64,000 nucleotides of DNA from Falsiroseomonas frigidaquae (GTDB lineage Bacteria; Pseudomonadota; Alphaproteobacteria; Acetobacterales; Acetobacteraceae). The notes under the pieces were generated by a model. The model was given only the letters and a program-made list of their open reading frames with translations. It had not been told where the DNA came from and did not search any database. The position numbers and the translations under genes are program-made. The stretch is from assembly GCF_012163145.1 (NCBI RefSeq), contig NZ_JAAVTX010000005.1, positions 62,001 through 126,000 of the forward strand, in the 5' to 3' direction. The first letter of the stretch is position 1; every line of letters begins with the position of its first letter. Shown piece by piece: positions 17,710 through 35,853 of this stretch.

Positions 17710-18066
17710 TCAGGGGATCTGCGCGGGAAAGCCGTGCAGCCCATCGGCGCCCAGCGGCAGCCGGGTGGCGGACAGCACGGCGGAGAGTGGCAGCTTCGCA
17801 TAGAGATGCGGGAACAGGCCCGGCCGGCTGCCGCCCGCGGCCGGCTCCCAGCGCAGCGCCTCGCCCAGCCGGGCGGCATCCACCTCCACCAGCCAGAGGT
17901 CCGCGACGCCGGCACGATGCTTCGCGGCGCTGGCGCGAAGCTGGCCGGCGGTGGAGAAATGCAGGAAGCCGTCGCGCGCATCATCGGCGCTGCCGGCATA
18001 GGCGCCGGCCGCTTCCGCCGCGCGCCAATCGGCTTCCCGGACCATGGTGTAGATGCGGTCTTCCAT
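17710..18066 (-). CDS. DUF952-family protein
   Basis: A 118-residue small cytosolic protein matching the DUF952 pattern: IYTMVREADWRAAEAAG, GFLHFSTAGQL, ASAAKHRAGVADLWLVEVD and a C-terminal FPHLYAKLPLSAV. DUF952 proteins resemble glutathione-S-transferase-linked or ADP-ribosyl-type folds but have no proven activity. It is the last ordinary host gene before the phage-like module and is convergent with the DUF4189 gene (7-base gap). Confidence 0.85.
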   Translation of the reverse strand: MEDRIYTMVREADWRAAEAAGAYAGSADDARDGFLHFSTAGQLRASAAKHRAGVADLWLVEVDAARLGEALRWEPAAGGSRPGLFPHLYAKLPLSAVLSATRLPLGADGLHGFPAQIP

Positions 18067-18098: not shown

Positions 18099-18545
18099 TC
18101 AGCCGAGCAGCCGGTAGAACACAAGCCCGCCAATCTCCGCCGTCGGCACCTGGCCGATCGCCCAGCGCGGCAGCGCATCGGCCGGGTGGTAATGCGTCGC
18201 GCCCCGCGCCGCATCCGGCAACGCGCCCGCCAGCGCCCGGGCGGCGATGCGGCGGCAGATGGCGAAGGCGGGGTCCTCCGCCAGGGAAGCGGCCAGCATG
18301 GCCGCGTGGCGCGGATTCTGCGGGTGCCAGCAGGCGAATTGGAAGGGCGCGCGGCAGATGCCGGCGACGTCACCGCCCAGGTGCTGCGGCCCGCCGGGCG
18401 TGCGGGCCAGGCGCAGGCGGTTCATCACCACCGCGGCCACACCCTCGATCCCGCGCACCGGGCGATGCCCGGCCTCGCCCCACAGGGTCCGCTCCAGCAC
18501 GCCGGCCGCGCTGCTGCGCGGTGGCAGGTCCAGCGCGGCGCTCAC
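18099..18545 (-). CDS. SleB-type cell wall hydrolase (phage endolysin)
   Basis: A 148-residue protein of the hydrolase-2/SleB family. The N-terminal catalytic-type stretch RTLWGEAGHRPVRGIEGVAAVVMNR carries the family Glu, followed by FQFACWHPQNPRH and the C-terminal ATHYHPADALPRWA. These enzymes cleave peptidoglycan and in phages act at lysis. The GTG start overlaps the stop of the holin-like gene (GTGA), a common lysis-cassette arrangement; an ATG 45 bases further upstream is less likely. No signal peptide is seen, so export would rely on the partner protein. Confidence 0.82.
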   Translation of the reverse strand: MSAALDLPPRSSAAGVLERTLWGEAGHRPVRGIEGVAAVVMNRLRLARTPGGPQHLGGDVAGICRAPFQFACWHPQNPRHAAMLAASLAEDPAFAICRRIAARALAGALPDAARGATHYHPADALPRWAIGQVPTAEIGGLVFYRLLG

Positions 18546-18946
18546 CGGCTGCTCTCGGCATCGGCGCGGGCACCGAAGCCCATCTTGCAATTCGGCATGG
18601 CCTGGCCGGCGATGGCGGTGGCCGTGGTGGCGGTGCGGCTCACCTCGTCCAGCTTCTCCTCGATCCGCAGCAATTGCAGGGACAGGCGCGAATCGAGGTC
18701 ACGGATCAGCGACAGCGGCACATAGGTCCGCGCCACCTCCAGCTTGAAGTCCACCAGCTCGTCGCGCGACGGGCCGGGATGCGGCACGGGGAACGCGACG
18801 GGGGGCGCGACGGTGGGCGCGACGGGGGGCGCTTCGGGCCGCGCCTGCAGCTCGCGCCGCAACATGTGCATCATCCAGAGCATCAGCGCGGCGAGCGGTG
18901 CATCCGCCAGCGCGGCCATGAGCTGGGGGGGGATCTCAGGGATCAT
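18542..18946 (-). CDS. Holin-like or lysis-accessory small membrane protein
   Basis: A 134-residue protein with one N-terminal hydrophobic segment (AALADAPLAALMLWMMHML), a Pro/Ala/Val repeat coded by a 12-bp period (VAPTVAPPVAFPVP), and a C-terminal amphipathic/coiled-coil part (LIRDLDSRLSLQLLRIEEKLDEV). A strong ribosome site (AAGGAG) precedes ATG at 18946. Its overlap with the endolysin gene suggests a holin or spanin-like role; sequence alone does not prove it. Confidence 0.65.
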   Translation of the reverse strand: MIPEIPPQLMAALADAPLAALMLWMMHMLRRELQARPEAPPVAPTVAPPVAFPVPHPGPSRDELVDFKLEVARTYVPLSLIRDLDSRLSLQLLRIEEKLDEVSRTATTATAIAGQAMPNCKMGFGARADAESSR

Positions 18947-19069
18947 CGGGATACTCCTTGAAGGGGGGCGGCGGCGGGACCACCCTGGGGGCGCCGCGGA
19001 TTCAGGAATGCGGCGCCCAACCCCGGCCGCCGCCATGGCCGACAGGAAGAAGCGACCGCTCAGCGAACA

Positions 19070-19291
19070 ATGTGGAACCAGCCCTATCTCGAGACCTGCT
19101 GCCGCTCCGCGCTGCACCGGCTGACACTGGTGGGCCAGCCGGGCCGCCCTGACGGGCTGAAAGACGGCCCCTGCCTGAACCGCCTGGCCGGCATGGGCCT
19201 GGCCCGGCAGCGCCCGGACGGGCGGTTCGAGGCAACGGAGGCGGGGCTGGCGCGCCACGCGACGGAGATCGCGCCGAGGAAGCGCGCCTGA
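19070..19291 (+). CDS. Small phage-associated protein, unknown function
   Basis: A 73-residue open frame (MWNQPYLETCCRSALHRL ...) on the strand opposite to the rest of the module, converging on the large terminase gene with a 1-base gap. The pattern CLNRLAGMGLARQRPDGRF, then EATEAGLARHATEI, looks like a small winged-helix half and reads like real protein, but no good ribosome site precedes the ATG. I do not recognise a family. Confidence 0.45.
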   Translation: MWNQPYLETCCRSALHRLTLVGQPGRPDGLKDGPCLNRLAGMGLARQRPDGRFEATEAGLARHATEIAPRKRA

Positions 19292-19292
19292 G

Positions 19293-20729
19293 CTAGACGC
19301 CCCTCCAGGGCAGGGTGGCCGGCCGCAGCGCCGGCGCGCCGGGCAGCCGCACCGGCTCCGCCAGCAGGCAGCCGGCGACCGCGTCCAGCGCATCGTCGTG
19401 CTGGCCCGGCATCTCCGGCCGCCACTCCGCCATCTCCCGCGCGAAGCGGGTGCGGAACACGTCCTCATGCGCCAGCAAACGGCGCCCGGCGAGCACCGGG
19501 TCCAGCGCCGCCAGGATGCGTTCCGCCTTGGCGCGGCGGCTGGTGGCTTCCAGCACGCTGCAATGGATGCCGATGCGGGTCATCTCCCGCTTCAGCAGGC
19601 CGGGCAGGAACTTGCCGATGCCGTTGGTCTCCACCCGCAGCACCGGCAGCAGCAATTCGCGCGCGACCTGCGCCACCGCGCGGCATTGCTGGGTTGCCGC
19701 GTCATCCTCGCCATCCGGATCGTGCAGCAGATAGGCCAGGCGGTGCAGGTAGTGCCGCCCTTCCGCATCGGCATAGGTGCAGGCCAGCACGCTGGCATCG
19801 CCCACGCCGGGCCGGCCGAAGGCCGGATCCCACCAGCCACCGCCGGAGACCATCTGCCGGCCCATCAGCGTCAGCACGCCGCGGCCATTCGCCTCGCGGT
19901 AGTCGGTATCCTCCGCGTAGCGCAGGATCAGGGCGGGATCGAGCCGCGCAGCCTCCTCCGCCACCGCCTCCAGCAGCATCTGGCGGCGAAAGGCGAGCGG
20001 GCCGACACGCTGGCGCAGGGCGTCGATGCCAGGCTGGGTGAAGCGTTCCGGCCAGGCGCTGGCGCCCTGTTCATCCAGCAGCGGCAGTACCAGGCGGCGG
20101 TAGCCGGAAAGGAAGGCGTCCGGCCCCTCGGCATACAGGCTCTCCGCGCAATGCGGCGTGCCGACGAACAGCACGCGGCCGCCGGGCACCAGCACGAACT
20201 CCGTCTCCGTCAGGCGTTCGCGCAATTCGGCGCGCTGCCCTGCGGAGCCGCAATTGCCGGCGACCTCCACATCGTCGCAGACGATCAGGTCTGCGCGCGC
20301 GCCGGTGATGTTGCCGCCGATGCCCGCAGCCAGCATCGAGGCATCGCGCAGCACCGCTTCCCGCGCCACGGTGAAGCGGTCCGACGCCCAGGATCCTTCG
20401 CCATGGTCCGGCAGCAGCGCGCCGCACAGCGGATGCCGGCCGAGGATTCGGCGCACCGTCGCAACCATGCGCGTGGCCAGTGCATGATCGGCCGCCACCA
20501 CCAGGATGCGGGTTTCCGGCGCGCGGTAGAGCTGCCAGGCGCAGTACAGCCCGACCAGCGTGGATTTGCCGCAGCCGCGGAAGGCCATCAGCAGCAGGCG
20601 CAGATCGCCCTGCTCGCCGCGATCCGACAGCCAGCGCAGCATGCGGCGATGCACCGCCGGCGTGCCTAGGCCGGCGAGGCGGTTCCAGATCCAGGCGAAT
20701 TCCAGCAGGTCGGCAGGACGTTCGGTCAT
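19293..20729 (-). CDS. terL: Phage terminase large subunit (T7 gp19-like)
   Basis: A 478-residue DNA-packaging motor. The ATPase half has a variant Walker A (LLMAFRGCGKSTLVG, residues about 46-60), Walker B (ADLIVCDDVEVAG) and the coupling region FVGTPH; the nuclease half has a first Asp region (GWWDPAFG), then the C-terminal QHDDALDAVAGCLL with paired acidic residues. Both catalytic centres look intact. It would cut and translocate DNA into proheads. Its ATG overlaps the small terminase stop (ATGA). The T7-maturase-B-like start (ADLLEFAWIWNRLAG) supports the chosen beginning. Confidence 0.9.
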   Translation of the reverse strand: MTERPADLLEFAWIWNRLAGLGTPAVHRRMLRWLSDRGEQGDLRLLLMAFRGCGKSTLVGLYCAWQLYRAPETRILVVAADHALATRMVATVRRILGRHPLCGALLPDHGEGSWASDRFTVAREAVLRDASMLAAGIGGNITGARADLIVCDDVEVAGNCGSAGQRAELRERLTETEFVLVPGGRVLFVGTPHCAESLYAEGPDAFLSGYRRLVLPLLDEQGASAWPERFTQPGIDALRQRVGPLAFRRQMLLEAVAEEAARLDPALILRYAEDTDYREANGRGVLTLMGRQMVSGGGWWDPAFGRPGVGDASVLACTYADAEGRHYLHRLAYLLHDPDGEDDAATQQCRAVAQVARELLLPVLRVETNGIGKFLPGLLKREMTRIGIHCSVLEATSRRAKAERILAALDPVLAGRRLLAHEDVFRTRFAREMAEWRPEMPGQHDDALDAVAGCLLAEPVRLPGAPALRPATLPWRGV

Positions 20730-21031
20730 ACATCCCCTTCCTTCGCCATCTGCGCCCGCATCGCCGCCAGCAGGTGGTCCTCATCCGGTGCCGCATCGGC
20801 TGGCTTCGCGGCATCGCCAGAGGTCATCGCCGCCAGCTCCGCCATATGCGCCAGCGCCGAGCGGGCGGCGGCCTGGTGCGCGGCGAAGGCCTTGGGGTCC
20901 GGCGGCACCTCGCCACGCGGCCAGGAGGCGACGAACTCGGCATAGTCGCCGGCGACACGCTGCATCGCCGCCGCCAGGGCCTCCCGTGGCAGAGGCGAGG
21001 CGGTAGGCTTGCCCCGGCTGGGACGCTTCAT
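20726..21031 (-). CDS. Putative phage terminase small subunit
   Basis: A 101-residue, Ala-rich helical protein with a basic N-terminus (MKRPSRGKP) and no membrane segment. It sits directly before and overlaps the large terminase gene, and its own ATG overlaps the tail-spike stop, exactly where T7 gene 18 lies. Small terminases diverge quickly, so the call rests on position, size and charge rather than on motifs. Confidence 0.65.
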   Translation of the reverse strand: MKRPSRGKPTASPLPREALAAAMQRVAGDYAEFVASWPRGEVPPDPKAFAAHQAAARSALAHMAELAAMTSGDAAKPADAAPDEDHLLAAMRAQMAKEGDV

Positions 21032-23310
21032 GCCTTCACCACGCGCACGCGCACCGTGCCGGCATTCAGATCCAGCGCCGCGCCACTACGGTTCCAGGCG
21101 GTGACCGTCACCACATCCTGCGCGCCGATCTGCGCCAGGAACACGGCGCCGGAGGTGGCAAGCGAGAAGGCGGCCTGCACGAAATCACCGGGCCGGGCGC
21201 CGCTGACCGGCACGTTGACCTGCGCACTGGCCCCGGCCGTGATCGAGGCCGGGTCCCAGGCCTGCTCCGCGACGAGTTCCCGCACACCGATCGGCAGGTC
21301 CGGCAGCCCGTACATCACGGCCGGCGCGTGGCGCGGGTCGCAGTTCAGCCGCAGTGCGCGCAACTCGTAATCGGCGGAGATGCGCGCGACGCCGATCACG
21401 GCCGTCGCCACGGCCGGTGAGAGCCGCACCGCCTGCAGCCGCGAAAGCCCCGCATCGGTCATGTCCGCGGCGCCCTGCCACCAGCGCGCCGTCGGATTCC
21501 AGACCATCGACTGGCCGGACGCCAGCACCAGCGGGCCGAGGCTGTCGGTCAGCAGGTTGTTGGCGCCATCGAAGCACATCACCACCAGGCGCGGCGCATC
21601 GGCATCGACGCTGAGCGCGAAGTCGCGGCAGCTTCGCGCATCCACGATGAAGCCGAGGCCACGCCCGCCGGTCAGCATCACGCCGCGATTGGTCAGGGTG
21701 AAGGAATCCAGTGCCGGAAATACGAAGTCATGCAGCAGCGCCGGACTGCCGGCGACGTTGGAGGACAGACAGGCCAGCTTCTCGAACCCCGTCTCCGTCG
21801 AGTTCCAGCGGATCATGGCGGCGCGCAGCGATGGCACGCTCGCCACCTCCCGCGTCGCGGCGCGATGCGGCGCGGCCTGGTGCAGCGCCTCCACCACACC
21901 GCCGAGGCGGCTGGCGGAGGCGGCGTGGTCGATCTCCACCTGGTAGCCCTGGCTGGCCCAGGCCACTTCATAGACATGGTCCTGCGCCGCGCCGGTATGG
22001 CGGGCGACGAAGCCGCTGCAGCCTTCCATTCGCACGCCTCGTGCGATGATGGCGCGGCTGTTCACCTCGCACAGGAAGGGAATGCCGGAGATCGGCCTGC
22101 CTTCCGCGTTCAGCTCGAAATTCGGGCCGTTGAACAGATGCCGGTTGTGCGCGACATAGGCGCCAGGCGCCGCGGACAGCCGGATGCCAAAGCGGTCCTT
22201 GTCCACATGCACGGTGGAGCCCACGGCGAAGTGGCCGCCATGGTAGCGGATGGAGGTATTCCAGGCGCCGGCCGTCGCGGTGTGGATATCCAGCCCGATC
22301 CGGTTGTTGACGATGCGACCGAGCTCCAGCGTGGAATCCTCGAAGCCGCGGCCGTCGCCCAGGGTACGGATGCCGATGGTGAAACCCTCGACGCGCCGCA
22401 CCTCGATCAGCGATGCGTCGTGGTTGCGCAGCAGGATGCCGATCTCGGCTTCATCCTCCCACGCCCCCTGCGTCGCGCGCAGCACGGACAGGCCGCTATG
22501 CCGCTTGCTTGCGTTGCGCGCGGTGCCGCCATCGCCGATGGTCAGCGCAGGCTGCCCGGCGGGCCCGGCATAGACGATGCTGCCCAGCATGGTCAGCCCC
22601 GCCGCCGCACCGGGCAGGGTCAGCGGCTGGGTCGAGCGGAAGGTGCCCTCCCCGATCAGCAGCATCTTGCCGGACGCAGCGGCCGCATTCATCGCCGCCT
22701 GCAATGCCGGGCCATCTTCCGTCGCGCCATCGCCGGTCGCGCCGAAATCGCGCGCGCTGAGCTGTTCGGCCAGCTTGTCTTCCACCGTGTAGGGAACGGC
22801 ACCAGGAAACGGCGCGCCGATCAACGCTGAATCGCGCGGCAGCAGCACCAGGTTGCCGATGCCGTCGAAGCCCAGCATGCGGTTGGCACGCGCGGCGCGC
22901 AGCGGCAGGGTGAAGCTGCCGCCAACCTCGGCGGGGTCCTGGCGCAGGGTGGAGGAAAGGTCTTCCCGCTGTTCCTGCAACGTGGCGACGATGCGGTCCA
23001 GCTCATCATTCAGCGTGCGGGCACGCAGCACGCCATTGTCCTGGAAATCCGTGCTGCGCTCCACGCGGATGCGGCGGCGCAGCGTGACGGTGCTGCCGGA
23101 TGCGGGCGGCGTGGCGAGGATGACGCTGCCGCCCTCGCTGCTGCCGGCGCCGGTCACGCTGAAGCCGCCGGAAATCACCACGCCATCCAGGCGCAGCTCC
23201 ATCTCCGAGGTCTGGAAGATCGGGAAGGGATAGGTGAACGCAACGCGGCTGCCGTCGCCCAGATACTGGACGCGCGGCGCGACGTCGCCGATGCGGATAT
23301 GCTCGGCCAT
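21028..23310 (-). CDS. Phage tail spike/fibre with T7 gp17-like N-terminus and beta-helix body
   Basis: A 760-residue protein. Residues 1 to about 140 match the virion-attachment domain of T7-type tail fibres (VQYLGDGSRVAFTYPFPIF, LRRRIRVERSTDFQ, LNDELDRIVATLQEQ). From about residue 190 (LSARDFGATGDGATEDGPAL) a pectate-lyase-like right-handed beta-helix begins, as in tail spikes that bind or cut polysaccharide. The C-terminus is a jelly-roll-like part (VTVTAWNRSGAALDLNAGTV). It would recognise a surface glycan. Of two adjacent ATGs the second, at 23310, has the better spacing from GGAG. Confidence 0.88.
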   Translation of the reverse strand: MAEHIRIGDVAPRVQYLGDGSRVAFTYPFPIFQTSEMELRLDGVVISGGFSVTGAGSSEGGSVILATPPASGSTVTLRRRIRVERSTDFQDNGVLRARTLNDELDRIVATLQEQREDLSSTLRQDPAEVGGSFTLPLRAARANRMLGFDGIGNLVLLPRDSALIGAPFPGAVPYTVEDKLAEQLSARDFGATGDGATEDGPALQAAMNAAAASGKMLLIGEGTFRSTQPLTLPGAAAGLTMLGSIVYAGPAGQPALTIGDGGTARNASKRHSGLSVLRATQGAWEDEAEIGILLRNHDASLIEVRRVEGFTIGIRTLGDGRGFEDSTLELGRIVNNRIGLDIHTATAGAWNTSIRYHGGHFAVGSTVHVDKDRFGIRLSAAPGAYVAHNRHLFNGPNFELNAEGRPISGIPFLCEVNSRAIIARGVRMEGCSGFVARHTGAAQDHVYEVAWASQGYQVEIDHAASASRLGGVVEALHQAAPHRAATREVASVPSLRAAMIRWNSTETGFEKLACLSSNVAGSPALLHDFVFPALDSFTLTNRGVMLTGGRGLGFIVDARSCRDFALSVDADAPRLVVMCFDGANNLLTDSLGPLVLASGQSMVWNPTARWWQGAADMTDAGLSRLQAVRLSPAVATAVIGVARISADYELRALRLNCDPRHAPAVMYGLPDLPIGVRELVAEQAWDPASITAGASAQVNVPVSGARPGDFVQAAFSLATSGAVFLAQIGAQDVVTVTAWNRSGAALDLNAGTVRVRVVKA

Positions 23311-23340
23311 CATGGGCTCCGATGCTGTGGGGTGCTTGCT

Positions 23341-23781
23341 TCAATCGAGCAGGTTGCGCAGGGAACTGCCGAAGGTCGTGCCGGCGCGCAGGAAGCTGGT
23401 CAGCGAGCCGTCATTGTTCAGCAGGCTGCGTCGCCCCGCGGAAAGCCGGGCCGCGAAGATCTGGTCGCTATCCGCCTGCGCCGCCGCGGCTTCACGTTCG
23501 AGCCCCGTCGTCAGCGCGGCAGCGGAGCCCTCATCCGGAGAGATTCCGCCGGCCGCCAGGCGGGCACGGGTGGAGGCCAGCGTGCCGGCCAGCCGTGCCT
23601 CCCGCGCCCGCGCCTCGGCGGATTGCTGCAGCGCCGCCTGCTCGACGCGCGCGCGCTCCTGCTCACGCGCCGCAGTGGCCTGCGCCTTCGCATTGGCCGA
23701 TTGCGCCTGGCCCTGCTGGACGCTGCTGTAGATGGAAGCGCCCGCGCCGATGGCGGCCGCGATGGGTGCGAGTTGCGCCAT
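23341..23781 (-). CDS. Small internal virion protein (T7 gp14-like)
   Basis: A 146-residue, Ala-rich helical protein: an N-terminal hydrophobic start (LAPIAAAIGAGASIYSSVQQ), a long coiled-coil-like middle (AREQERARVEQAALQQSAEA), then RLAAGGISPDEGSAA, a pattern common in podovirus and siphovirus internal/adaptor proteins. Its place between tail tubular B and the tail spike equals T7 gene 14. Its ATG shares one base with the stop of the tail tubular B-like gene. It may form the ejection channel; this is inferred from position and composition. Confidence 0.65.
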   Translation of the reverse strand: MAQLAPIAAAIGAGASIYSSVQQGQAQSANAKAQATAAREQERARVEQAALQQSAEARAREARLAGTLASTRARLAAGGISPDEGSAAALTTGLEREAAAAQADSDQIFAARLSAGRRSLLNNDGSLTSFLRAGTTFGSSLRNLLD

Positions 23782-25661
23782 CAGTTGGAGATCCTCATGT
23801 CGGTGGTGACGGAAAGCAGTGTCAGCGGCAGCGGCGTCGCCCCCTCGATCCGCCACAGCGGCGCCATCGCGTCGCGCCGCCATCCCAGCGCACGCAGCGC
23901 GATGTCACCGGTGAAGGGCGCCGGCGCCGCATCCAGCAGCGCCGTGTCCAGCCGGCGGAACGGCACCGGCTGCACGCCGCGGCCGAGATCCACCTCCAGC
24001 GCCGGCGTCGCCAGCAGGCGGAAGGTGGCGGAGACCAGGCGCAGCGGCGCGGCGGCAGCGCCGCTGGCATTGCCGAGTGCCGGCGGCAGCGGCTCGATCA
24101 CATGCCGGAAGGGCAGGCCCGCCTGCACCGTGCTCGCCGGCAGATCGAGCGTGATGGCGCCGTCCAGCACCAGCGCCGCGGCGCCCGGCGCGCCATCGGT
24201 CAGCACGCCGACCTGCCGCGCCTCGAGATGTGCGAGGCCTGTCCAGCGGTCCTGCGGCGCAGCGCTGCTGCCGGACAGCGCCGCATCCAGCCCAGCCGCG
24301 TTGTCGAAGCGCTCCAGCCGGAAGCTGCCGAAGCGTTCCACCAAAGCGTAGACCCGGCCTTCGGTTTCGGCCACCGCGCGGAAGGCGCCCTCGGTTTCCT
24401 GCCGCGTCCAGGCGGTGACCTGTTCGGCGCGATACAGCGTCAGCGTGGCAATGCTGCCATCCGCCATCACCACATGCAGCAGCCGCGCCGTCTGGTCATA
24501 GGCCATGGAGACCGGGCCCTGCACCAGGTGCCGTGCCACCAGCGCCAGGTCGTTCGCCTGGTAGGCATCGGCGACGTCGGTATAGGCGAATTCATGCACG
24601 CCACGGCCAGACCGTGCGACGAACAGCGTCGCGCCATCCACATCCACCGGCGGCACCTGGCGATCCACCGCGGTGCCGATCCGCGTCTGGCGGTTCAGCT
24701 GGATGGAGGACGGCGTCAGCGGATCGCCCGTCACCATCCATTCGGCGCCGGATGTGAAGACCTGCAGGTGCCGCCCGGAGAACACCGCGCGGATCGCATT
24801 CACCTGGTCGGAGACCAGCGCGAACTCGATCGCCTCGTCATCCAGCCCGGTGCCGCCATCGAAATCGCCGAGGTCGCCTGTGCGCGACAGCCACAGCCGG
24901 TTCGGCGCATCGCGCGACCCGCCGAGCACCAGCCGGTCCTGGTGGAAGCAGGCGGAGACCGGCCAGCCGCGCACGCCGCTGAAGGCGGTCTCCTGCCAAT
25001 CCTGCGTCGCCAGCGTATCCTCCAGCGGCTCCTCCACCAGCGCAGTCGCGTTCTGCGGCCCTTCGACGGACAGGATAACCACGCGCTTGCCCTTCAGGCG
25101 GAAGCGGCTGGTGACATGACCGCCGCTGAAGACCGGCGCGGAACAGGTCAGCGCGACGGTGCCCGTGGTGGCGGAAGCGGACATCGCGACATCGCGCGTG
25201 AAATTGTGGAAGGCCTCCCGTACGAAGACGAAGGGCGTGATGGTCCAGGCGGTGTGGCTGCTGCGGGTCAGCCGCTGCGGCGGCATCTCCGGGTGGAACA
25301 GCAGCAGCGTGTCGGCGCTCTGCGTGAAGGCCAGTTGTGGCAGCATGACGGTGGACCACGGCGCCGGCAGGTTCGCGACCTCCGCATCGCCGAGGAACAC
25401 CTGCAGCCGGCCCTCGCTCAGCACCAGCAGATAGGTCTGTTCCGTATTGAACTCGAACGGCATCAGCCGCGCGGGGCCGGGCAGCGTGGCCACATGCACC
25501 AGCCCCGGCCGGCGGGCGACGCCGCCGGTCGGCTGGATGACGACATTCCGCAACTGCCGCGCACCATTCTCGAAGGCACGCAGATCGGCGCGGCCGTACA
25601 ATTCGGGGGCGAGCTCGCCGGCGGTGAAGGAGGATTTGATGCGGCGCGTGGCGATGGTCAT
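23781..25661 (-). CDS. Tail tubular protein B-like (T7 gp12-like nozzle)
   Basis: A 626-residue, beta-rich protein starting TRRIKSSFTAGELAPELYGR, the hallmark opening of phage nozzle/stabilisation proteins (SFxxGELSPxLYGRxD), then LRNVVIQPTGGVARRPGL, repeated beta-propeller-like segments (CFHQDRLVLGGSRDAPNRLW, LQVFTSGAEWMVTG) and the C-terminal DMRISN typical of the group. It would form the tail nozzle next to the portal-proximal ring of tail tubular A. A GAGGGG ribosome site precedes ATG at 25661, five bases from the previous stop. Confidence 0.85.
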   Translation of the reverse strand: MTIATRRIKSSFTAGELAPELYGRADLRAFENGARQLRNVVIQPTGGVARRPGLVHVATLPGPARLMPFEFNTEQTYLLVLSEGRLQVFLGDAEVANLPAPWSTVMLPQLAFTQSADTLLLFHPEMPPQRLTRSSHTAWTITPFVFVREAFHNFTRDVAMSASATTGTVALTCSAPVFSGGHVTSRFRLKGKRVVILSVEGPQNATALVEEPLEDTLATQDWQETAFSGVRGWPVSACFHQDRLVLGGSRDAPNRLWLSRTGDLGDFDGGTGLDDEAIEFALVSDQVNAIRAVFSGRHLQVFTSGAEWMVTGDPLTPSSIQLNRQTRIGTAVDRQVPPVDVDGATLFVARSGRGVHEFAYTDVADAYQANDLALVARHLVQGPVSMAYDQTARLLHVVMADGSIATLTLYRAEQVTAWTRQETEGAFRAVAETEGRVYALVERFGSFRLERFDNAAGLDAALSGSSAAPQDRWTGLAHLEARQVGVLTDGAPGAAALVLDGAITLDLPASTVQAGLPFRHVIEPLPPALGNASGAAAAPLRLVSATFRLLATPALEVDLGRGVQPVPFRRLDTALLDAAPAPFTGDIALRALGWRRDAMAPLWRIEGATPLPLTLLSVTTDMRISN

Positions 25662-25665
25662 GCGC

Positions 25666-26235
25666 TCATCCCCTCACATCGATCAGCGGGAAATGCTCGA
25701 TGGCGCGTGGCGTATCCTGCTGGCTGTCGATCAGCCGCGCACTGCGCATCTCGCCCTCCGCAAGGCGGAACAGCATCTCGGCACGGGATGCGCTGTCGGT
25801 GAGCGGCAGGCAGAACTCGGCGGCCAGGCGTGCGACCAGGGCCTGGGCGAAGAAGGGCGGGAAGGCGCTCTCGTCCGGGCGGAAGATGTAGGTCAGCGTC
25901 ACGCTGGTGGCATCGGCCTGCAGCTTGTCCTCATGCAGCCGGTACGGCATGCCGCCGCCACGCCCGCCACTGCCAGCCGACAAGGCGCGCAGGAAGCCGG
26001 TGGGAAGCTGGAAGGCATGCGCCATGTCGGCCGGCGGCGTGGCCGCAAGTCGTGGCAGGCTCGTCTGGCCGGTGGCGAAGGACCACGGGTGCGCCGAGAG
26101 CAGCGCATCGCGCGTGGACGCATAGAGATTCGCCGCTACCTCCGCTTCCGCGGTGCCCTCATCGAGCGAGGCGACGGGCTGCGCGCCGAGGCGCAGCAGG
26201 GCGCGCGAACAGAGCGCGACAGCGGTCAGGGCCAT
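25666..26235 (-). CDS. Tail tubular protein A-like (T7 gp11-like adaptor)
   Basis: A 189-residue protein with the tail-adaptor features ALTAVALCSRALLRLGAQPV, YASTRDALLSAHPWSFATG (the conserved HPWxFA block) and VARLAAEFCLPLT, TYIFRPDES. These adaptors form the ring between portal and nozzle in T7-like phages. The ATG has GGAAG upstream. Its neighbours, capsid upstream and nozzle downstream, match T7 gene order. Confidence 0.85.
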   Translation of the reverse strand: MALTAVALCSRALLRLGAQPVASLDEGTAEAEVAANLYASTRDALLSAHPWSFATGQTSLPRLAATPPADMAHAFQLPTGFLRALSAGSGGRGGGMPYRLHEDKLQADATSVTLTYIFRPDESAFPPFFAQALVARLAAEFCLPLTDSASRAEMLFRLAEGEMRSARLIDSQQDTPRAIEHFPLIDVRG

Positions 26236-26279
26236 GTGGGTTCTTCCGATCCGGGATGGTTGGTTTGCTGGCGAGGTCC

Positions 26280-26325
26280 CCCCTCACCCAACCCTCTCCC
26301 CCCAAACGGGGAGAGAGGGGCTTGG
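26280..26325. repeat. REP-like intergenic palindrome, possible terminator
   Basis: The block contains CTCTCCCC and GGGGAGAG as an 8-bp stem around a 6-base loop, within the context CCCTCACCCAACCCTCTCCC. Read on the minus strand this is the GAGAGGGTTGGGTGAGGG motif that recurs between genes of many proteobacteria. It lies between the capsid and tail-adaptor genes, where it could attenuate transcription of the tail genes. Its spread in the genome cannot be checked here. Confidence 0.65.
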
Positions 26326-26333
26326 CGGCGCGG

Positions 26334-26385
26334 ACTATTCCGCCGCGCGCATCCGCACGACTATTCCGCCGCGCGCATCCGCACG
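26334..26385. repeat. 26-bp tandem duplication at the capsid gene end
   Basis: Two perfect 26-bp copies (26334-26359 and 26360-26385), each beginning ACTATTCCGCCGCGCG. The right copy holds the final codons and stop (RMRAAE-stop) of the capsid gene; the left copy repeats the same bases just beyond the stop. The protein is not changed. Confidence 0.9.
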
Positions 26386-27200
26386 ACGCCGAAGTCATCC
26401 ACCAGCGCCGCGCCCTGGCTCATCATGTTGGCGACGAAATGCGCCGCGCGGTCGCCGTGCCAGGTGATGTCGGTCTCGACCTCCGCTGCGGCGGCGTGGC
26501 CGATGGCGGTGCGGTGGTAGAAGTAGCAATGCCGCAGCCCACCCGAGAGCGTCAGGCCGGAATGCGGCATCCACATCGCGCCGAGCCAGCGCTTCGCCTG
26601 GCTGCCCTTCCACGGCAGCGCGTCCTCGCCGATGTATTCGGACGAGGCGAATTCCTCGATCTCCAGCAGCTGCGACCACTGCTTCCAGCCGACCACGGCG
26701 TAGCGCCCGCCATCATCCGGCACTTCCGCGGCGCCCATCATCTCGAAGGCCAGCAGCACCTTCGCCTTGGTCAGACCGTCGCTGTCCGTGGTACCGGCGG
26801 CAGTACCCACCGCCTCCCGCGTCGAGGCATCCAGCGCGGCGATGATCAGCTCATCCGTCTTGCGGCCGAGCGCATAGGCGCCGGCATTGGCCACGACGTT
26901 GCGCTCATCCACATTGGTCTTCAGCTCATCGAGGCGGTCGATCCAGTCGCCGGCGTAGTAGTCCTGCAGCACGCATTCGACCTGCGCATGCTCCAGGTTC
27001 ATCACCGGCACGGAGCCATGCCGCGTCTTCGCCGCGGCAATGCCCTTGCCGACCTTCGGGAAGAAGGTGCTGGTGCCGGTCACGCCGGTCTTGGAACGCA
27101 CGGTGGGGCGCAGCTTGCTGCCCTGGCGCTGGTAGGCCTCATGCACCTCGGCCTGGAACTGGCGGGTGAAGACGGCGTCGATCTGGGTGGAAGCGGACAT
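26361..27200 (-). CDS. Phage major capsid protein
   Basis: A 279-residue protein. It opens with IDAVFTRQFQAEVHEAYQRQ and has a GSKLRPTVRSKTGV segment, VECVLQDYYAGDWIDRLDELKTN, ANAGAYALGRKTDELIIAAL and a beta-rich C-terminus (LRHCYFYHRTAIGHA). This is the capsid family found next to T7-like portals and scaffolds in alphaproteobacterial podoviruses; the length is compact but sufficient for an HK97-type fold. AAGGA precedes the ATG. The 3' end carries a tandem duplication outside the coding sequence. Confidence 0.85.
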   Translation of the reverse strand: MSASTQIDAVFTRQFQAEVHEAYQRQGSKLRPTVRSKTGVTGTSTFFPKVGKGIAAAKTRHGSVPVMNLEHAQVECVLQDYYAGDWIDRLDELKTNVDERNVVANAGAYALGRKTDELIIAALDASTREAVGTAAGTTDSDGLTKAKVLLAFEMMGAAEVPDDGGRYAVVGWKQWSQLLEIEEFASSEYIGEDALPWKGSQAKRWLGAMWMPHSGLTLSGGLRHCYFYHRTAIGHAAAAEVETDITWHGDRAAHFVANMMSQGAALVDDFGVVRMRAAE

Positions 27201-27327
27201 GCGATTTCCTTGTCAGGGACAGGGGTTTTCTGAAGCGGCCGCACCGACGGTTCCCCGGCTGGGCCGGCGGCACGGCAGAAGCCCACAGCCCGCCAATGGC
27301 GGGTTGCCTGCGGGAAAGGGGTTCGGG

Positions 27328-28056
27328 CTACTCGCCGACGAGGCGCCGAAAGCCGTCCGTCACGCGCTTGACGAAATCCGGCTCCCGCGTGCGCCAGTAG
27401 CGCGGGTCGCGCATCATCTTCCGCAGCTCGGCCTCATCCGGCCCGGCCTCGGCCTGCGCCTCGCGGGTCAGGGAAGGCTCCTTGCCCTCCATCATCCGGT
27501 GCAGCGCGACCACGCCATCGGCGGTGGAGGACAGCGCGGTGAACACCGCCTCCGGCAGATGCGCGCGGCCCCAGGCGGAAAGCTGGCCGGCGATGCGGCG
27601 GAAGCGGTCCTCGCCGCCGAAATGCGCGCGCAGCTTCTCCACCTGCCGCCCGGCCTCGAATTCCGCGGCGGCCTCGGCGATCAGCGGCAGCAGCCGTTCG
27701 GCGGCCAGGTCATACACAAGCTGCACCTGGCGCGGGTTGAAGCCGGCCTCGTGCAGGCGCTGGTTCACCGCGGAATCCGGCGTCAGCAGCTCGTTCGGCG
27801 GCGTCACCTGGTATTCATCCGCGCTGTCGGGAATGCCCAGCGCGCGGCGCCAGCGCATGCGGTCCTCCTCCGGCGCATCATCGGCCGGCGGGGCGAAGCG
27901 CTGGGACAGGCGGCGTTCCAGCTCGATGTAGGATTTCAGCAGCGCATCCACCCGCAGCGCGCCCTTCGCCTCGTCCCAGAATTTCTCGGGGATCTCGGCG
28001 GGCCGGGTGTTCGCGCTGGCGGTTTCCGTCGCGGCTTCGAGAAGGTTCTCGGACAT
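27328..28056 (-). CDS. Putative capsid scaffold/assembly protein
   Basis: A 242-residue acidic, helical protein. EIPEKFWDEAKGALRVDALLKSYIELERRL matches, in two stretches, the opening of podovirus scaffold proteins, which lead with a K-x-W-D-x-x-x-G-x-x-R element before coiled coil; a helical Arg-rich C-terminus (YWRTREPDFVKRVTDGFRRL) follows. It lies between portal and capsid, as T7 gene 9 does. ATG at 28056 is favoured because AGGAG sits 11 bases upstream; the GTG at 28068 overlaps the portal stop but its ribosome site would be too close. Confidence 0.8.
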   Translation of the reverse strand: MSENLLEAATETASANTRPAEIPEKFWDEAKGALRVDALLKSYIELERRLSQRFAPPADDAPEEDRMRWRRALGIPDSADEYQVTPPNELLTPDSAVNQRLHEAGFNPRQVQLVYDLAAERLLPLIAEAAAEFEAGRQVEKLRAHFGGEDRFRRIAGQLSAWGRAHLPEAVFTALSSTADGVVALHRMMEGKEPSLTREAQAEAGPDEAELRKMMRDPRYWRTREPDFVKRVTDGFRRLVGE

Positions 28057-28064
28057 GCCGGGGC

Positions 28065-29498
28065 TCACTCCTGGTTCTGGTGAATGGGTGCGGTCACGGG
28101 CCGGATGATCTCCGGCGGCGCGCCAAGGGTGCGGGCCAGCCAGCGGGCGGCGGCCGGCGCGTCCAGCACCGCCTGCGCGTCCTTGCCCAGCCCGGCCGCG
28201 GCCTGCAGGAACAGCAGCGTGTCGGAGGCATCGGCACGTGCCTGCACGCGGGCGAGCGGCGAGCTGTAGACCAGCCGCGCCTCCTGCCCATCGGCCAGCA
28301 GCGCGGGCACTTCGCCGCGCCGGCGCAGCACCGAAAGGCAGCGCGCCACCAGCGGGCTCAGCAGCTCTGCCTGCAGCCTTCCGTAGATGGCGCCGAGCAG
28401 GCGGATGGAGATGGCGCTGCGTTCCGTCACCTCCGTCGCCGTCATGCCGGCCTTGTCGGAAGCCGCGATCCGGTCGGCGAGCAGCGCGCCGCGGATCCGC
28501 GTGCGCAGATCCTGCAGGATGAGCTGCGAGACATCGAAGTTTCCCGGCGCCGCCAGCGGCGTCAGCCCGGCGGAGCCCTGCGCCTTGGGGATGATGGCGC
28601 CCGGCACCAGCCGCACCGTCGCCGGGTTCAGCACGCCGTCATCCTCCGCCTGCCAGATGCCGGTGGCGGCGATGGAGGCGTTCTTCAGGATCAGCTCCAC
28701 CACCTTGTTGGCGGTGCGGATATCCGGCAGCGCCTTGGCGACGGGGCCGCGGCCATAGGTCTCGCCGGGCACCTTCAGCCAGCGGAAGGCGATGAAGGGG
28801 TTTTCCGAGAACCGCCCCTCCGCCAGCAGTTCCGGCGCCGCCTCCCCGCCATCCAACACCACGGCGAAGCGGTGGCCGGCGCGCGCATCCGGCCACACCG
28901 CCTCCACCACCCGAAGCTGCGGCGCTTCGTCGTTGCCATCCTGCCTTGGCAGAACGAGCTGCGCCTGCGGCCAGCGGGCGCGGATCTCGGCGGGCGTCAG
29001 ACGGATGGCGCGGAACACCGTGTCCAGCCGGCCCGAGGGGCCTTCCTCCAGCACCGTCTCGCGCAGCGGCACCGCGGTGAAGCGCAGGGCGGAGGTCTCG
29101 CCGGGCGGCGCTTCCTCCACCAGCAGCACGGCGGTGCCGGTCACCACGAGTTCGAGAAAGGCCTGGTGCAGTTCCAGCGCGAAGTTGGAGCGGTCCAGAT
29201 GCCCCTGCAGCGTCTCCGCCGCATCCTCCAGCACCCTTGCGGCGGCCTGGGCGTCCGGGCCCTCGGCGACGCGGCGGGTCGGCGCCAGGCCGAACCAGCG
29301 GGACCAGGGCGGCGCCAGTTCCGCGAGCAGGGAGGCGGCGAGCTGTTCCGCCGCATCGGCCGCCGTCGCATCGAACAGCGGCGCGGCATTGGCGGCCGGC
29401 AAGGCGTAGTCGTAGCAATCCTGCCACCGCCCCTCCAGCGGGCGGCGCCGCGCGGCGGCGCGGGCGTGACGGGCGAGGATCTGTTCGGGTGTCATCAT
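28065..29498 (-). CDS. Phage portal (head-tail connector) protein, T7 gp8-like
   Basis: A 477-residue protein of the podovirus head-to-tail connector family. Typical blocks include WQDCYDYALPAANAA, LLAELAPPWSRWFGLAP, LVVTGTAVLLVEEAPPG, GETYGRGPVAKALPDIRTAN and the C-terminal MTATEVTERSAISIRLLGAI. It forms the dodecameric ring at the DNA-entry vertex. GTG at 29507 overlaps the previous stop; ATG at 29498 has a better-spaced TGAGG site and is used here. Confidence 0.9.
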   Translation of the reverse strand: MMTPEQILARHARAAARRRPLEGRWQDCYDYALPAANAAPLFDATAADAAEQLAASLLAELAPPWSRWFGLAPTRRVAEGPDAQAAARVLEDAAETLQGHLDRSNFALELHQAFLELVVTGTAVLLVEEAPPGETSALRFTAVPLRETVLEEGPSGRLDTVFRAIRLTPAEIRARWPQAQLVLPRQDGNDEAPQLRVVEAVWPDARAGHRFAVVLDGGEAAPELLAEGRFSENPFIAFRWLKVPGETYGRGPVAKALPDIRTANKVVELILKNASIAATGIWQAEDDGVLNPATVRLVPGAIIPKAQGSAGLTPLAAPGNFDVSQLILQDLRTRIRGALLADRIAASDKAGMTATEVTERSAISIRLLGAIYGRLQAELLSPLVARCLSVLRRRGEVPALLADGQEARLVYSSPLARVQARADASDTLLFLQAAAGLGKDAQAVLDAPAAARWLARTLGAPPEIIRPVTAPIHQNQE

Positions 29499-29503
29499 GG
29501 CCC

Positions 29504-29749
29504 TCACTCGCCCAGCAGGTTCTTGCGCGCGGTGCCGCCCGGCGCGGCGGCCAGCACCCCGCGGGCGGAGGTGGCGATGGTGCCGGCCAGGCCGCGGCGG
29601 GCACGGTCCAGCGCCCGCTGGCGGGCCTGGCGCGCGGCGTCCTCCGCCGTGGCCTCGGTGGCGGCGGCTTTCTCGCTGGCGGCCTGGACCGCGGTCTCGG
29701 TGTCCGTCGCGGTCACGACCGGCTTCGGCGCCTGGAACAGGCCACCCAT
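29504..29749 (-). CDS. Small phage protein upstream of portal, unknown function
   Basis: An 81-residue protein: GGLFQAPKPVV at the N-terminus, a Lys/Ala/Glu/Thr-rich helix (TETAVQAASEKAAATEATAE) and a Gly/Ala-rich end (GTARKNLLGE). Many podoviruses have such a short gene just before the portal gene, and GGLFxxPKxP openings are common in them. It is the first gene downstream of the strong terminator and overlaps the possible portal GTG start. Confidence 0.65.
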   Translation of the reverse strand: MGGLFQAPKPVVTATDTETAVQAASEKAAATEATAEDAARQARQRALDRARRGLAGTIATSARGVLAAAPGGTARKNLLGE

Positions 29750-29789
29750 GCGCGCTTCCTTCGGATCGGGTTGGCTCCTGGCCCAGGCC

Positions 29790-29824
29790 AAAAAAAGACC
29801 CGCCCGGCGAGGCCGGGCGGGTCT
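29790..29824 (-). terminator. Strong intrinsic terminator at the head of the phage late genes
   Basis: A perfect 13-bp stem (left arm AGACCCGCCCGGC) with a 3-base loop is followed, reading on the minus strand, by seven T. It ends transcripts coming from 29,926-30,812 or from the promoter candidate at 29,885, before they reach the 81-residue gene and the virion genes. Confidence 0.9.
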
Positions 29825-29884
29825 GAGTCTGGGGGACCGGGAGAGGAGATCGCCGTGGGACGCAATTCGTCCCGTGGCAGGGGG

Positions 29885-29913
29885 TTGATAGACCGGGCGT
29901 TTCACTGAGTCAA
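29885..29913 (-). promoter_or_regulatory. Sigma-70-type promoter candidate, minus strand
   Basis: Read on the minus strand: TTGACT (29913-29908), a 17-base spacer, then TATCAA (29890-29885). It sits in an AT-rich island (29,905-29,940) that stands out from the GC-rich surroundings, and points toward the virion genes. The terminator at 29,790-29,824 would stop its transcript after about 90 bases unless read through. Confidence 0.5.
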
Positions 29914-29925
29914 TATTTATTCCTA

Positions 29926-30378
29926 TCAAATATGATTATTTTCCTTTTCCTTGCCGCCGAGCGCCCGGAACAGCTGGAAGGGCGTCCAGGCCGCCGGCGC
30001 GCCACCACCCAGCAGGGCACGGCACAGCGCCACGCAGGTGAAGGGCGCGATCGACGGCAGGCGCTGTGGCAAGGGCTCCCCGGGGGTGAAGGGGCCGAGC
30101 ACGCGCAGCCCGGCGCGACGGTAGAAGCTGGGCAGGTCGAAGCCGCCAGGCACCGGCAGGCGGGCCACCAGCAGGCGGCCCGACAACGGTTCCGCCACCG
30201 TCCATCCGGCCTCGTCGCCGAGCGCGGCGAAACAATGCCGGAAGCCGGGGCGCAGCAGGTGCAGCCAGGGCTGGTCGGCGACCCCGCCGAAGGCGATCCA
30301 GACGGTCTGCCCCGCCTCATCCGTCGCGCGGCGATGCACCAGGCGGCGGGTCGAGATGGCCTGCGCCTGGCCGGTCAC
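29926..30378 (-). CDS. Phage-associated protein, 150 residues, unknown function
   Basis: Read from a GTG that overlaps the stop of the upstream 145-residue gene (GTGA). Visible blocks are VWIAFGGVADQPWLHLLRPG, FRHCFAALGDEAGWTV, VAPFT-type ending as IAPFTCVALCRALLG, and AWTPFQLFRAL. The paired Cys (FTCVALC) and an earlier His/Cys (FRHCF) recall papain-like or NlpC-like folds, but the case is weak. It is coupled to the 145-residue gene and ends in the AT-rich island before the virion genes. Confidence 0.7.
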   Translation of the reverse strand: MTGQAQAISTRRLVHRRATDEAGQTVWIAFGGVADQPWLHLLRPGFRHCFAALGDEAGWTVAEPLSGRLLVARLPVPGGFDLPSFYRRAGLRVLGPFTPGEPLPQRLPSIAPFTCVALCRALLGGGAPAAWTPFQLFRALGGKEKENNHI

Positions 30379-30812
30379 GACAGGCGGCTCCCGTTGCGCC
30401 CCGGAAAGGGCACCACCTCCGCCTCCTGCATCCCGCGCGGCGGGCCGCCGACGATGCCCTTGGCGCGCAGCGGGAAGTCCAACCGGTCCATCGCTTCCCG
30501 CCACAGCCGCAGGTCGCCGGCTTCCTGCGGAATGCGCGGGCTTGGGGATTCATGCCGCTCGCCCCAGATACGCATGATGCGGGCATGGGCCAGATCGATG
30601 CGGCGCTGGCGGTACAGCCGGTCGAGGCATTTCACAACGTCATCCGGCTCGCATGGCCGCACCACCAGGCCGCGACCTGCGCCGAGGCGCGCGCCGTCGC
30701 GCCGGGCGGTCAGCGCGGCCATGGTCCAGAACCAGGCATCCTCGGCGGTGGCGAAGGGCTGCGCGCGGTCCATGCTGGCGAGGATCGGGGCGCGGCAGGG
30801 GGCGATGGACAT
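30375..30812 (-). CDS. Phage-associated protein, 145 residues, unknown function
   Basis: A 145-residue, Arg-rich soluble protein. ATAEDAWFWTMAALTARRDG, RPCEPDDVVKCLDRLYRQRR and HARIMRIWGERHESP are distinctive and read like a DNA-binding or regulatory helix set. AGAGGA precedes ATG at 30812. It is the first gene of the minus-strand pair next to the SOS-type box, so it may be a damage-induced activator of the module; that role is inference. Confidence 0.7.
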   Translation of the reverse strand: MSIAPCRAPILASMDRAQPFATAEDAWFWTMAALTARRDGARLGAGRGLVVRPCEPDDVVKCLDRLYRQRRIDLAHARIMRIWGERHESPSPRIPQEAGDLRLWREAMDRLDFPLRAKGIVGGPPRGMQEAEVVPFPGRNGSRLS

Positions 30813-30842: not shown

Positions 30843-30857
30843 GAACAAAACAGGAAC
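30843..30857. promoter_or_regulatory. Alphaproteobacterial SOS (LexA) box, GAAC-N7-GAAC
   Basis: GAAC at 30843-30846 and GAAC at 30854-30857 are separated by exactly seven bases; the reverse complement reads GTTCCTGTTTTGTTC. This is the direct-repeat operator used by LexA in alphaproteobacteria. It lies 31 bases upstream of the 145-residue phage gene and in the divergent gap to the S24 regulator. A further inverted pair, GGAACA (30853-30858) and TGTTCC (30873-30878), overlaps it. Confidence 0.6.
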
Positions 30858-30991
30858 AAAAGCTGCTTAACCTGTTCCACCCGAGGTTGCAAGGATATCG
30901 TTCCTATTGCATCGCGACTCGAAACCTAGGATGTGCCACCCAGGATGCGGCGCCCTGACCGCCGCCTTCCAATTCGAGGATTGCCTTGGCC

Positions 30992-31639
30992 ATGCGGCAT
31001 GAGGATATCTGGCGGGCGATCGACGCCCTCGCCGCCGAACACGGCCTCTCCGCCTCCGGCCTCGCCCGCCGGGCCGGGCTGGATGCCACCGCCTTCAACC
31101 CGTCCAAGCGGACCGGGGTGGACGGCCGCGCGCGCTGGCCCTCCACCGAAAGCGTCGCCAAGGTGTTGAGCGCGACCGGCACGGGGTTCGAGGCCTTCGC
31201 CTCCCTGGTCACCGGCGCCCCGGCCCTCTCGCGCGGCGGCCGCGGCCCGATCGCCCGGCGCATCCCGCTGATCGGCCTGGCGCAGGCCGGCGGCGAGGGC
31301 TTCTTCGACGATGGCGGCTATCCGGTGGGCGGCGGCTGGGACGAGATCTCGGTGCCCGACGTGCCCGACCCGAATGCCTACGCCCTGGAGATCAGTGGCG
31401 AGAGCATGGAGCCGGTGTTCCGCGACGGCGATGTGGTCATCGTCTCCCCCGGCGCGCCGGTGCGGCGCGGCGACCGCGTGGTGGTCCGCACAAGGCAGGG
31501 GGAGGTGATGGCCAAGGAGTTGCTGCGCCAATCCGCCCGGCGGGTGGACCTGGCCAGCCTGAACCCGGCGCATCCGAACTACAGCTTCGACCTGGCCGAG
31601 CTGGCCTGGATGCACCGCATCATCTGGGCGACCCAATAG
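30992..31639 (+). CDS. XRE/S24 LexA-like autocleaving transcriptional regulator
   Basis: A 215-residue protein with an N-terminal helix-turn-helix (IDALAAEHGLSASGLARRAG) and a C-terminal S24 peptidase domain: cleavage-site-like Ala-Gly (LAQAGGEGFF), catalytic Ser (ISGESMEPVF) and catalytic Lys (VMAKELLRQ). Such proteins repress phage or stress genes and self-cleave with RecA. Start at ATG 30992 fits the family opening MRHEDIWRAID; TTG at 30986 is closer to the GAGGA site. It is divergent from the phage-associated pair. Similar regulators also occur as ordinary host genes in alphaproteobacteria, so phage origin is not certain. Confidence 0.85.
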   Translation: MRHEDIWRAIDALAAEHGLSASGLARRAGLDATAFNPSKRTGVDGRARWPSTESVAKVLSATGTGFEAFASLVTGAPALSRGGRGPIARRIPLIGLAQAGGEGFFDDGGYPVGGGWDEISVPDVPDPNAYALEISGESMEPVFRDGDVVIVSPGAPVRRGDRVVVRTRQGEVMAKELLRQSARRVDLASLNPAHPNYSFDLAELAWMHRIIWATQ

Positions 31640-35692: not shown

Positions 35693-35853
35693 GGCGACGG
35701 TCATCCTCAGGCTGGAGACGGTGCCGCCTTATAGGTGCGGCGCTCCTTCCAGGCGAGGCCGTCCGCGACCGGAGCGGGCGTTCACAAGCCAGCATAAATT
35801 TGCGCTTAGGTTGATCCCGGTCCAGCCTGTATTGCCTCGCCCCATCCGAACCC

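Follow-up and report, generated by a model that had tools for sequence, protein, structure and literature searches.

Genes and features of the locus

The window, i.e., the whole stretch of 64,000 nucleotides of Falsiroseomonas frigidaquae that was analysed, contains at positions 18099-30812 an intact podovirus-type virion module, all genes of which are on the minus strand. It is described here as a domesticated set of particle genes, probably that of a gene transfer agent (GTA). The genes are transcribed in the order p1, p2, p3, portal, scaffold, capsid, tail tubular protein A (tubA), tail tubular protein B (tubB), gp14-like protein, tail spike, putative small terminase subunit, large terminase subunit (TerL), 134-amino-acid (aa) protein and hydrolase. 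All features of the module given below are on the minus strand unless stated.

The portal (28065..29507, with an ATG at 29498 as possible true start) matches PF12236 with an expectation value (E) of 4e-118, the T7-type scaffold (27328..28068) matches PF05396 (E 3e-15) and the major capsid protein (26361..27200) matches PF19821 (E 4e-80). The tail is represented by tubA (25666..26235; phrog_394, E 3e-45), tubB or nozzle (23781..25661; phrog_376, E 6e-147) and a spike (21028..23313) combining PF03906 with a pectate-lyase-like stretch (PF12708). The gp14-like internal virion protein (23341..23781, the start being one chosen among candidates) belongs to phrog_418 (E 5e-8). TerL (19293..20729; phrog_38, E 1e-76) has conserved motifs. 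The putative small terminase subunit (20726..21031) is named from its position, phrog_31793 being a family of unknown function. The cell-wall hydrolase, i.e., an endolysin (18099..18590; PF07486, E 8e-11), is preceded by the 134-aa protein (18542..18946), a possible holin or spanin according to position and sequence; its longer frame has no Pfam match. The original prediction had described T7-like late genes, including two terminases and a lysis pair, in order on one strand. Strong family matches uphold this for most genes; the small terminase stands by its position, and the hydrolase is the recognised half of the lysis pair. A tailocin (tail only) is rejected, capsid and terminase genes being present.

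Three small genes lie upstream of the portal. The protein encoded by p3 (29504..29749) is conserved in alignment and ends in KNLLGE. That encoded by p2 (29926..30378) has weak relatives in small Vibrio podoviruses, and its His48 and Cys115 are invariant across 30 aligned sequences; it may be a papain- or NlpC-like hydrolase, a pattern with no database match. The first gene, p1 (30375..30812), belongs to no known family. For none of p1, p2 and the small terminase did PDB or Pfam searches yield a relative that merits retention. Divergent from the module, on the plus strand, is a gene for a LexA/cI-like helix-turn-helix repressor, hereafter S24 (30986..31639; PF00717, E 9e-21). These three genes, S24, the predicted repressor boxes and the leader terminator described below were not part of the original prediction.

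Further statements of that prediction on the locus itself hold. The GC (guanine plus cytosine) content of the module is that of its surroundings, and no tRNA gene is found in the 64-kb window. No integrase is found there either; the genome has 13 integrase-domain matches, the sole one on the same contig being about 390 kb away. Family searches gave no resemblance to replication proteins among the tested proteins within or beside the module. T7-type RNA polymerase (PF00940) has no match in the genome, a weak negative since the search matched no control genome either. The far flank of the site is a conserved DUF952 gene (17710..18066, minus strand), outside the particle set; a class I lysyl-tRNA synthetase (LysRS) gene is found at 33998-35704.

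Predicted control region

S24 adjoins the module in 49/49 full-length loci of the family Acetobacteraceae (3.6 kb away in one, L115). The Ser, Lys and Ala-Gly positions of self-cleavage are kept in the S24 of the window and in 14/14 genomes positive for RcGTA, i.e., carrying its marker PF13547. S24-like matches occur in 241 of 385 alphaproteobacterial genomes, many being weak, and matches to phage repressors span about half of the S24 length at best.

From the stretches upstream of S24 in the 14 RcGTA-positive genomes, and with TAGGA as seed, a model of a 20-base box was derived. In the window, the five best matches of the 64 kb fall at four positions, all in the two control regions of the module, with scores of 14.7 or more; the next score is 10.4. 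The best match (29908..29927) is at the p2 stop and overlaps a TTGACT -35-like element. A predicted box over the 3' end of p2 (29929..29948) scores on both strands (matches 2 and 5). The third (30889..30908) and fourth (30849..30868, plus strand) are in the S24-p1 spacer. Among 54 module loci, the best box of the whole locus falls in the S24-p1 or the p2-p3 spacer in 51, these spacers making up 2.85% of the sequence. The best score is above the shuffled 95% level in 64/73 S24-p1 spacers of the named loci and in 18/28 stretches upstream of S24 in other families. An unseeded count on the RcGTA spacers alone gives TAGGAA as the top 6-mer (12/14, the largest shuffle giving 9) and ATAGGAA as the top 7-mer. 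The strict published Caulobacter RogA box GGAA-N4-TTCC is absent from the window (exact search), and a promoter consensus scan gave no match.

After the p2-p3 boxes and ahead of the structural operon comes a strong intrinsic terminator (29796..29824), i.e., a 13-bp stem with 11 G-C pairs followed by a T-run. A hairpin with a folding energy (dG) of -18 or lower plus a T-rich tail is found in 56/75 Acetobacteraceae spacers vs. 11/450 random windows; with a stricter test the values are 31/75 and 17/1500.

The p1 gene was detected in 5/7 module genomes tested and in 0/20 module-free genomes. No relative of it was found in the phage records searched. The same genome has a separate prophage-like region (contig C9:279000-298500, L410) with a DnaB-like helicase, a CII-like activator, an integrase and a divergent p1 relative. 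Because p1 is the first gene, its presence is linked to the module and its relative stands among phage control genes in that region, it is a candidate positive regulator of the module as judged from sequence.

Distribution and chromosomal site

The portal was found in 16/16 genomes of the genus sample, including the present one, with one match each (that of G015 is a piece at a contig edge). In the family sample, 80/299 genomes have a portal match; 75 of them, in 23/102 genera, reach at least 60% identity and the remaining five only 26-30%. Three family genomes bear additional distant copies (28-36%). The original prediction had considered that patchy presence would point to a simple prophage remnant: the module is not patchy in the genus, and its presence in the family is partial.

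From 160 named loci the best 80 were taken, 49 of which are long enough to be judged. In all 49, S24, p1, p2, portal, scaffold, capsid, tubA and TerL are present with the same order and strand; tubB, the internal protein and the spike are found in 48 and p3 in 46. Simple search detects the putative small terminase in 15. The counts for the 134-aa gene (41) and the hydrolase (34) concern genes located at the end of the fetched stretch. The syntenic search proposed with the original prediction thus gives an identical core order beside S24 in all 49.

In the class sample, 102/385 alphaproteobacterial genomes have a portal match. Sixty of them (the present one included), from 35 families, have at least 41% identity, a cut-off chosen after a gap at 36-41% had been observed. 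In a phylum sample of 299 genomes, portal matches outside the class do not exceed 33%. Profile searches within the fetched stretch of 40 genomes from other families found portal in 40, scaffold in 34, p2 in 32, S24 in 31, capsid in 27, TerL in 26 and p1 in 24; five of these stretches (L184, L185, L187, L188 and L191) have little besides the portal. After addition of second stretches, the values upon 46 genomes are capsid 45, tubB 44, TerL 41, S24 38, spike 34 and p1 30. Three genomes of family f82 (G388, G502 and G594) have a portal (41-42%) and a capsid (58-59%) at separate places; no TerL was found there with the protein of the window.

The LysRS gene flanks the module on the side of S24 in 31/49 named loci. 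DUF952 comes after the last module gene in 17/20 module-bearing Acetobacteraceae, within 140 bases in 14. Twenty module-free loci were compared, i.e., 14 RcGTA-positive and 6 without the RcGTA marker. S24 is divergent from DUF952, with 84-217 bases between them, in 9/14 RcGTA-positive genomes, while in a tenth the distance is 2.5 kb; the synthetase is on the other side in 10/14. The S24-DUF952 arrangement is found in 1/6 genomes without the marker (G024). Since S24 and DUF952 adjoin in these module-free genomes and flank the module elsewhere, the module occupies the gap between them.

PF13547 is found in 36/385 class genomes and in 0/60 module genomes; three of the 36 (G443, G474 and G615) have distant portal matches (23-31%). 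Family f93 holds both marker and module, in different genomes. The exclusion has a hypergeometric P of 0.0016, not corrected for kinship, and thus mainly says that module and RcGTA occupy different clades. In Table 3 of a survey by Kogay (2019), no RcGTA-like cluster is reported in 62 Acetobacterales genomes, nor in Azospirillales, Kiloniellales or Rhodospirillales (PMC6821227).

Descent and selection

For 35 genomes, an rpoB tree was compared with one calculated from portal, capsid, tubB and TerL. For this, 46 genomes were queried, 42 matched and 39 stretches were fetched (G388, G594 and G600 being left out as partial); G477, whose RpoB motif was unmatched, was dropped, and so were G183, G395 and G502, each without a match for one of the module genes in its stretch. 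The two sets agree with a Mantel r of 0.80 (0/2000 permutations as high) and have 16/32 splits in common, while 500 label shuffles give a mean of 0.21 and at most 2. Judged from these trees, the descent of the module is largely vertical and mostly follows rpoB.

The ratio of nonsynonymous to synonymous substitution rates (dN/dS), a check proposed with the original prediction, was obtained by a counting method that is rough at this GC. With the two nearest relatives, the main virion genes are under purifying selection (0.05-0.18): capsid and tubA 0.05-0.06, TerL 0.08-0.14, portal 0.11-0.17 and spike 0.17-0.18, the two flanking genes having 0.14-0.19. The values of p3 and hydrolase are looser (0.35-0.79). 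In this comparison p2 showed one stop and the LysRS gene two.

The catalytic residues of TerL are kept in 90 or 91 of 91 full-length sequences, in agreement with the intact ATPase and nuclease motifs originally predicted: the Walker A Lys in 90/91 (one gap), the Walker B Asp-Asp plus Glu and the nuclease Asp in 91/91. This count takes TerLs of more than 440 aa (named loci) or with a profile score above 500 (others); those of G374, G663, G586 and L121, being split or truncated, are thus outside the 91.

Two features used to recognise GTAs are therefore found: (i) packaging and capsid genes are under purifying selection; (ii) virion genes are fixed in the host genome and vertically inherited, with no recognised replication or integration genes, given two tree conflicts and the partial presence in the family.

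Split cassettes

In eight genomes (G480, G523, G575, G411, G682, G605, G395 and G552) the second half of the module is missing after the scaffold. In each of the eight, capsid and TerL are found elsewhere as single open genes, mostly with their neighbours; the distance is 0.13-1.2 Mb in four genomes, and the other four have them on another contig. The halves of the module thus persist apart, unlike a phage, which moves as one piece.

Other rearrangements were observed. In locus L157 (G346), about 10 kb of other sequence is found between scaffold and capsid, the order being otherwise kept. In the 0.9 Mb genomes G663 and G374 (loci L220-L223), TerL occurs as two genes, i.e., its ATPase and nuclease parts, kilobases apart. 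In the family sample, the portal is split over contigs or broken in G066, G310, G323, G103 and G304.

Interpretation and rival explanations

The module is almost certainly domesticated and selected. This reading is adopted because virion, packaging and lysis genes are intact and conserved, replication and integration genes are not recognised, the locus is orthologous, descent is largely vertical and the halves survive splitting. By analogy with known GTAs, it is probable that the module packages host DNA and transfers it. Taken as a whole, the module is best explained, with reasonable though not high confidence, as a domesticated, repressor-controlled podovirus making a short-tailed, DNA-packaging particle, most likely a GTA.

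Several observations weigh against this explanation or its parts. (i) The observations concern sequence; the particle, its DNA cargo and the transfer are predictions. (ii) The large ejection proteins of a related phage, the Vibrio podovirus 121E34-1, are absent from the module, so that DNA entry is unexplained. (iii) Single relatives show decay: L121 (Sabulicella) has lost the region from tubB to part of TerL; G038, also split, has a broken capsid gene; a stop interrupts the portal of G284, G323, G442 and G647, whereas in G103 and G304 the portal is fragmented; the TerL of G374 contains a stop. (iv) Module and rpoB trees have two strongly supported conflicts. (v) Over all 91 genus pairs (14 loci) the median dN/dS is higher, i.e., 0.24 for capsid, 0.29 for portal, 0.31 for TerL, 0.33 for spike, 0.63 for the small terminase and 0.67 for p3, the flanking genes having 0.23 and 0.35. 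(vi) As regards control, the box seed was picked after the module spacers (and the RcGTA spacers) had been viewed, and GGAA-N4-TTCC is found in 0/73 named spacers and 2/37 others; beyond Acetobacteraceae the terminator is not clear (8/30 spacers at dG -15 or lower vs. 38/320 random windows), and p1 was not found in the module-bearing genomes G350 and G437.

A domesticated particle might have another job, i.e., an antibacterial or signalling capsid, or the export of DNA for repair or kin killing. The absence of the large ejection proteins is in its favour, as DNA delivery may be impaired, and so is the spike: it is 73-94% identical along its length in the four genus members compared (three do not fall below 73% anywhere, L052 is at 68-78%), but its last third drops to 35-48% in 4/6 loci of other genera. 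However, the TerL motor and nuclease, the portal and the scaffold are constrained, and an empty killing particle would not need them. This alternative is considered unlikely, while being the one that survives best.

The module is not a prophage remnant. A defective prophage in decay, common to the relatives through insertion in a recent ancestor, would account for the lack of integrase and replication genes and for the deletions and stops in single relatives. Such a remnant needs neutral dN/dS and random loss, and neither is the rule; purifying selection, the kept catalytic residues of TerL, the mostly vertical inheritance across 35 families and the persistence of both halves after splitting also argue against it, leaving it highly improbable. 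The alternative that the original prediction had set beside a defective prophage, a domesticated and possibly GTA-like particle, is thereby supported, as it is by the genus-wide presence and the conserved locus. Inactivating mutations in relatives, which it had named as an argument for a remnant, exist in the single cases listed above and are not the rule.

A satellite or helper-dependent element using another phage for replication and spread would likewise have virion genes without replication genes, but the absence of a nearby integrase, the fixed orthologous site, the single copy in the genus, the congruent tree and the lack of excision or of differing sites among the loci compared make it hardly credible; known satellites usually lack, rather than keep, the full virion set. 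A temperate podovirus might also be active here, always at the same site, if its replication genes had escaped recognition. In its favour, the closest phage relatives are podoviruses with a similar virion gene order, one with an integrase, but 12.7 kb with no candidate replication gene, a host-like tree and best 80 IMG/VR matches of at most 15.2 kb (close relatives only) leave it hardly any probability.

If the module is a podovirus-type GTA, the following mode of action can be proposed. In resting cells, S24 would bind the predicted boxes before p1 and before p3-portal, and both promoters would be off. Removal of the repressor, perhaps by RecA-stimulated self-cleavage (proposed because Ser, Lys and Ala-Gly are kept), would lead to the production of p1-p2. 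Then p1 or another factor would let RNA polymerase pass the leader terminator and the structural operon would be expressed. By analogy with RcGTA and CcGTA, TerL would fill heads with cellular DNA without specificity, the hydrolase would lyse the cell and the spike would bind relatives.

Particle genes of a short-tailed phage, which many alphaproteobacterial groups have retained in their chromosome beside a phage-type repressor, form a candidate for an unrecognised kind of GTA. Were it one, (i) the RcGTA record would understate how common GTAs are in Alphaproteobacteria; (ii) phages of different types would have given rise to GTAs there at least two times, possibly with one regulator in common; (iii) lineages without RcGTA would gain a route for chromosomal gene exchange.

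Comparison with phages and gene transfer agents

Among complete phages, those ranked best do not exceed 46% identity to the module in the capsid, 36% in the portal and 33% in TerL. Pelagibacter phage EXVC031P Hodr is the top complete phage by capsid (45.5%) and portal (36.2%); it differs in its size of 34 kb and in its many additional genes, each of which is annotated as hypothetical. According to its record annotation, the Vibrio podovirus 121E34-1 (31.6 kb) has in the same order a p2-like gene, portal, scaffold, capsid, two head-tail proteins and a small protein. Unlike the module, it encodes an integrase, three large proteins that follow the small internal one, and many other products; its TerL is at the other end and its p2 is 29% identical. 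This phage likely shows the ancestral plan of the module.

With T7 and T7-like phages the module shares the families of portal, scaffold, tubular proteins, spike N-terminus and TerL. It differs from T7 in that the terminase comes after the spike and no phage RNA polymerase was found (the weak negative mentioned above, no control having matched). Proteins of the size of T7 gp15 and gp16 are also absent.

The best 80 of the 156 relatives in IMG/VR measure 4.1-15.2 kb, in a scan that reaches close relatives only. These 80 entries (L224-L303), listed as viral, carry the portal of the module and look like pieces of it. This suggests that IMG/VR entries of this kind, of 4-15 kb, are chromosomal genes and not viruses. 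A 5.1 kb human faecal contig named "Bacteriophage sp." (MT838907.1, L362) has a portal and a capsid 53-57% identical to those of the module; it may be a bacterial fragment.

No published description of this module was met in the literature searched, most subscription papers and all preprints being outside its coverage, and the Faecalibacterium element FpGTA was the sole podovirus-type GTA-like element met. Faecalibacterium is a gut Firmicute. As described, FpGTA has podovirus-type portal, scaffold, capsid and terminase genes with no replication genes and is called the first GTA with podovirus-like morphology (PMC12946183). The likeness with the module, i.e., a podovirus-type gene set without replication genes in a GTA-like element, is one of description, and FpGTA differs in that its tail fibre and lysis genes form a second operon.

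RcGTA is siphovirus-like, with another gene set. Like RcGTA and CcGTA, the module is a domesticated, vertically inherited set of virion genes without replication genes. It differs from RcGTA in that PF13547 is absent from the present genome and from the other 59 module genomes, so that the module is not counted as RcGTA-like. For CcGTA, two reports describe a LexA/cI-like repressor of the S24 type, RogA, and an early terminator within the structural operon; RogA is the repressor of gafYZ, and GafYZ enables RNA polymerase to get past that terminator (PMC9632790, PMC11150451). The predicted control layout of the module (repressor, boxes and leader terminator) recalls the RogA/GafYZ arrangement. 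RogA (213 aa) and the S24 of the window (217 aa) have by description the same helix-turn-helix plus S24 layout, and RogA is described as widespread in Alphaproteobacteria; RogA is reported there to be devoid of the cleavage residues, which the S24 of the window keeps. A broader scheme can be put forward tentatively, the odds being somewhat against it: Alphaproteobacteria would carry two ancient, mutually exclusive GTAs, the siphovirus-type RcGTA and the podovirus-type module, the latter in Acetobacteraceae and in many families of the class sample without the RcGTA marker, both under the same inherited S24 repressor. In this scheme S24 originally stood beside the module. Lineages losing the module would have kept S24 at the empty site, where it would have come to control RcGTA, as RogA in Caulobacter.

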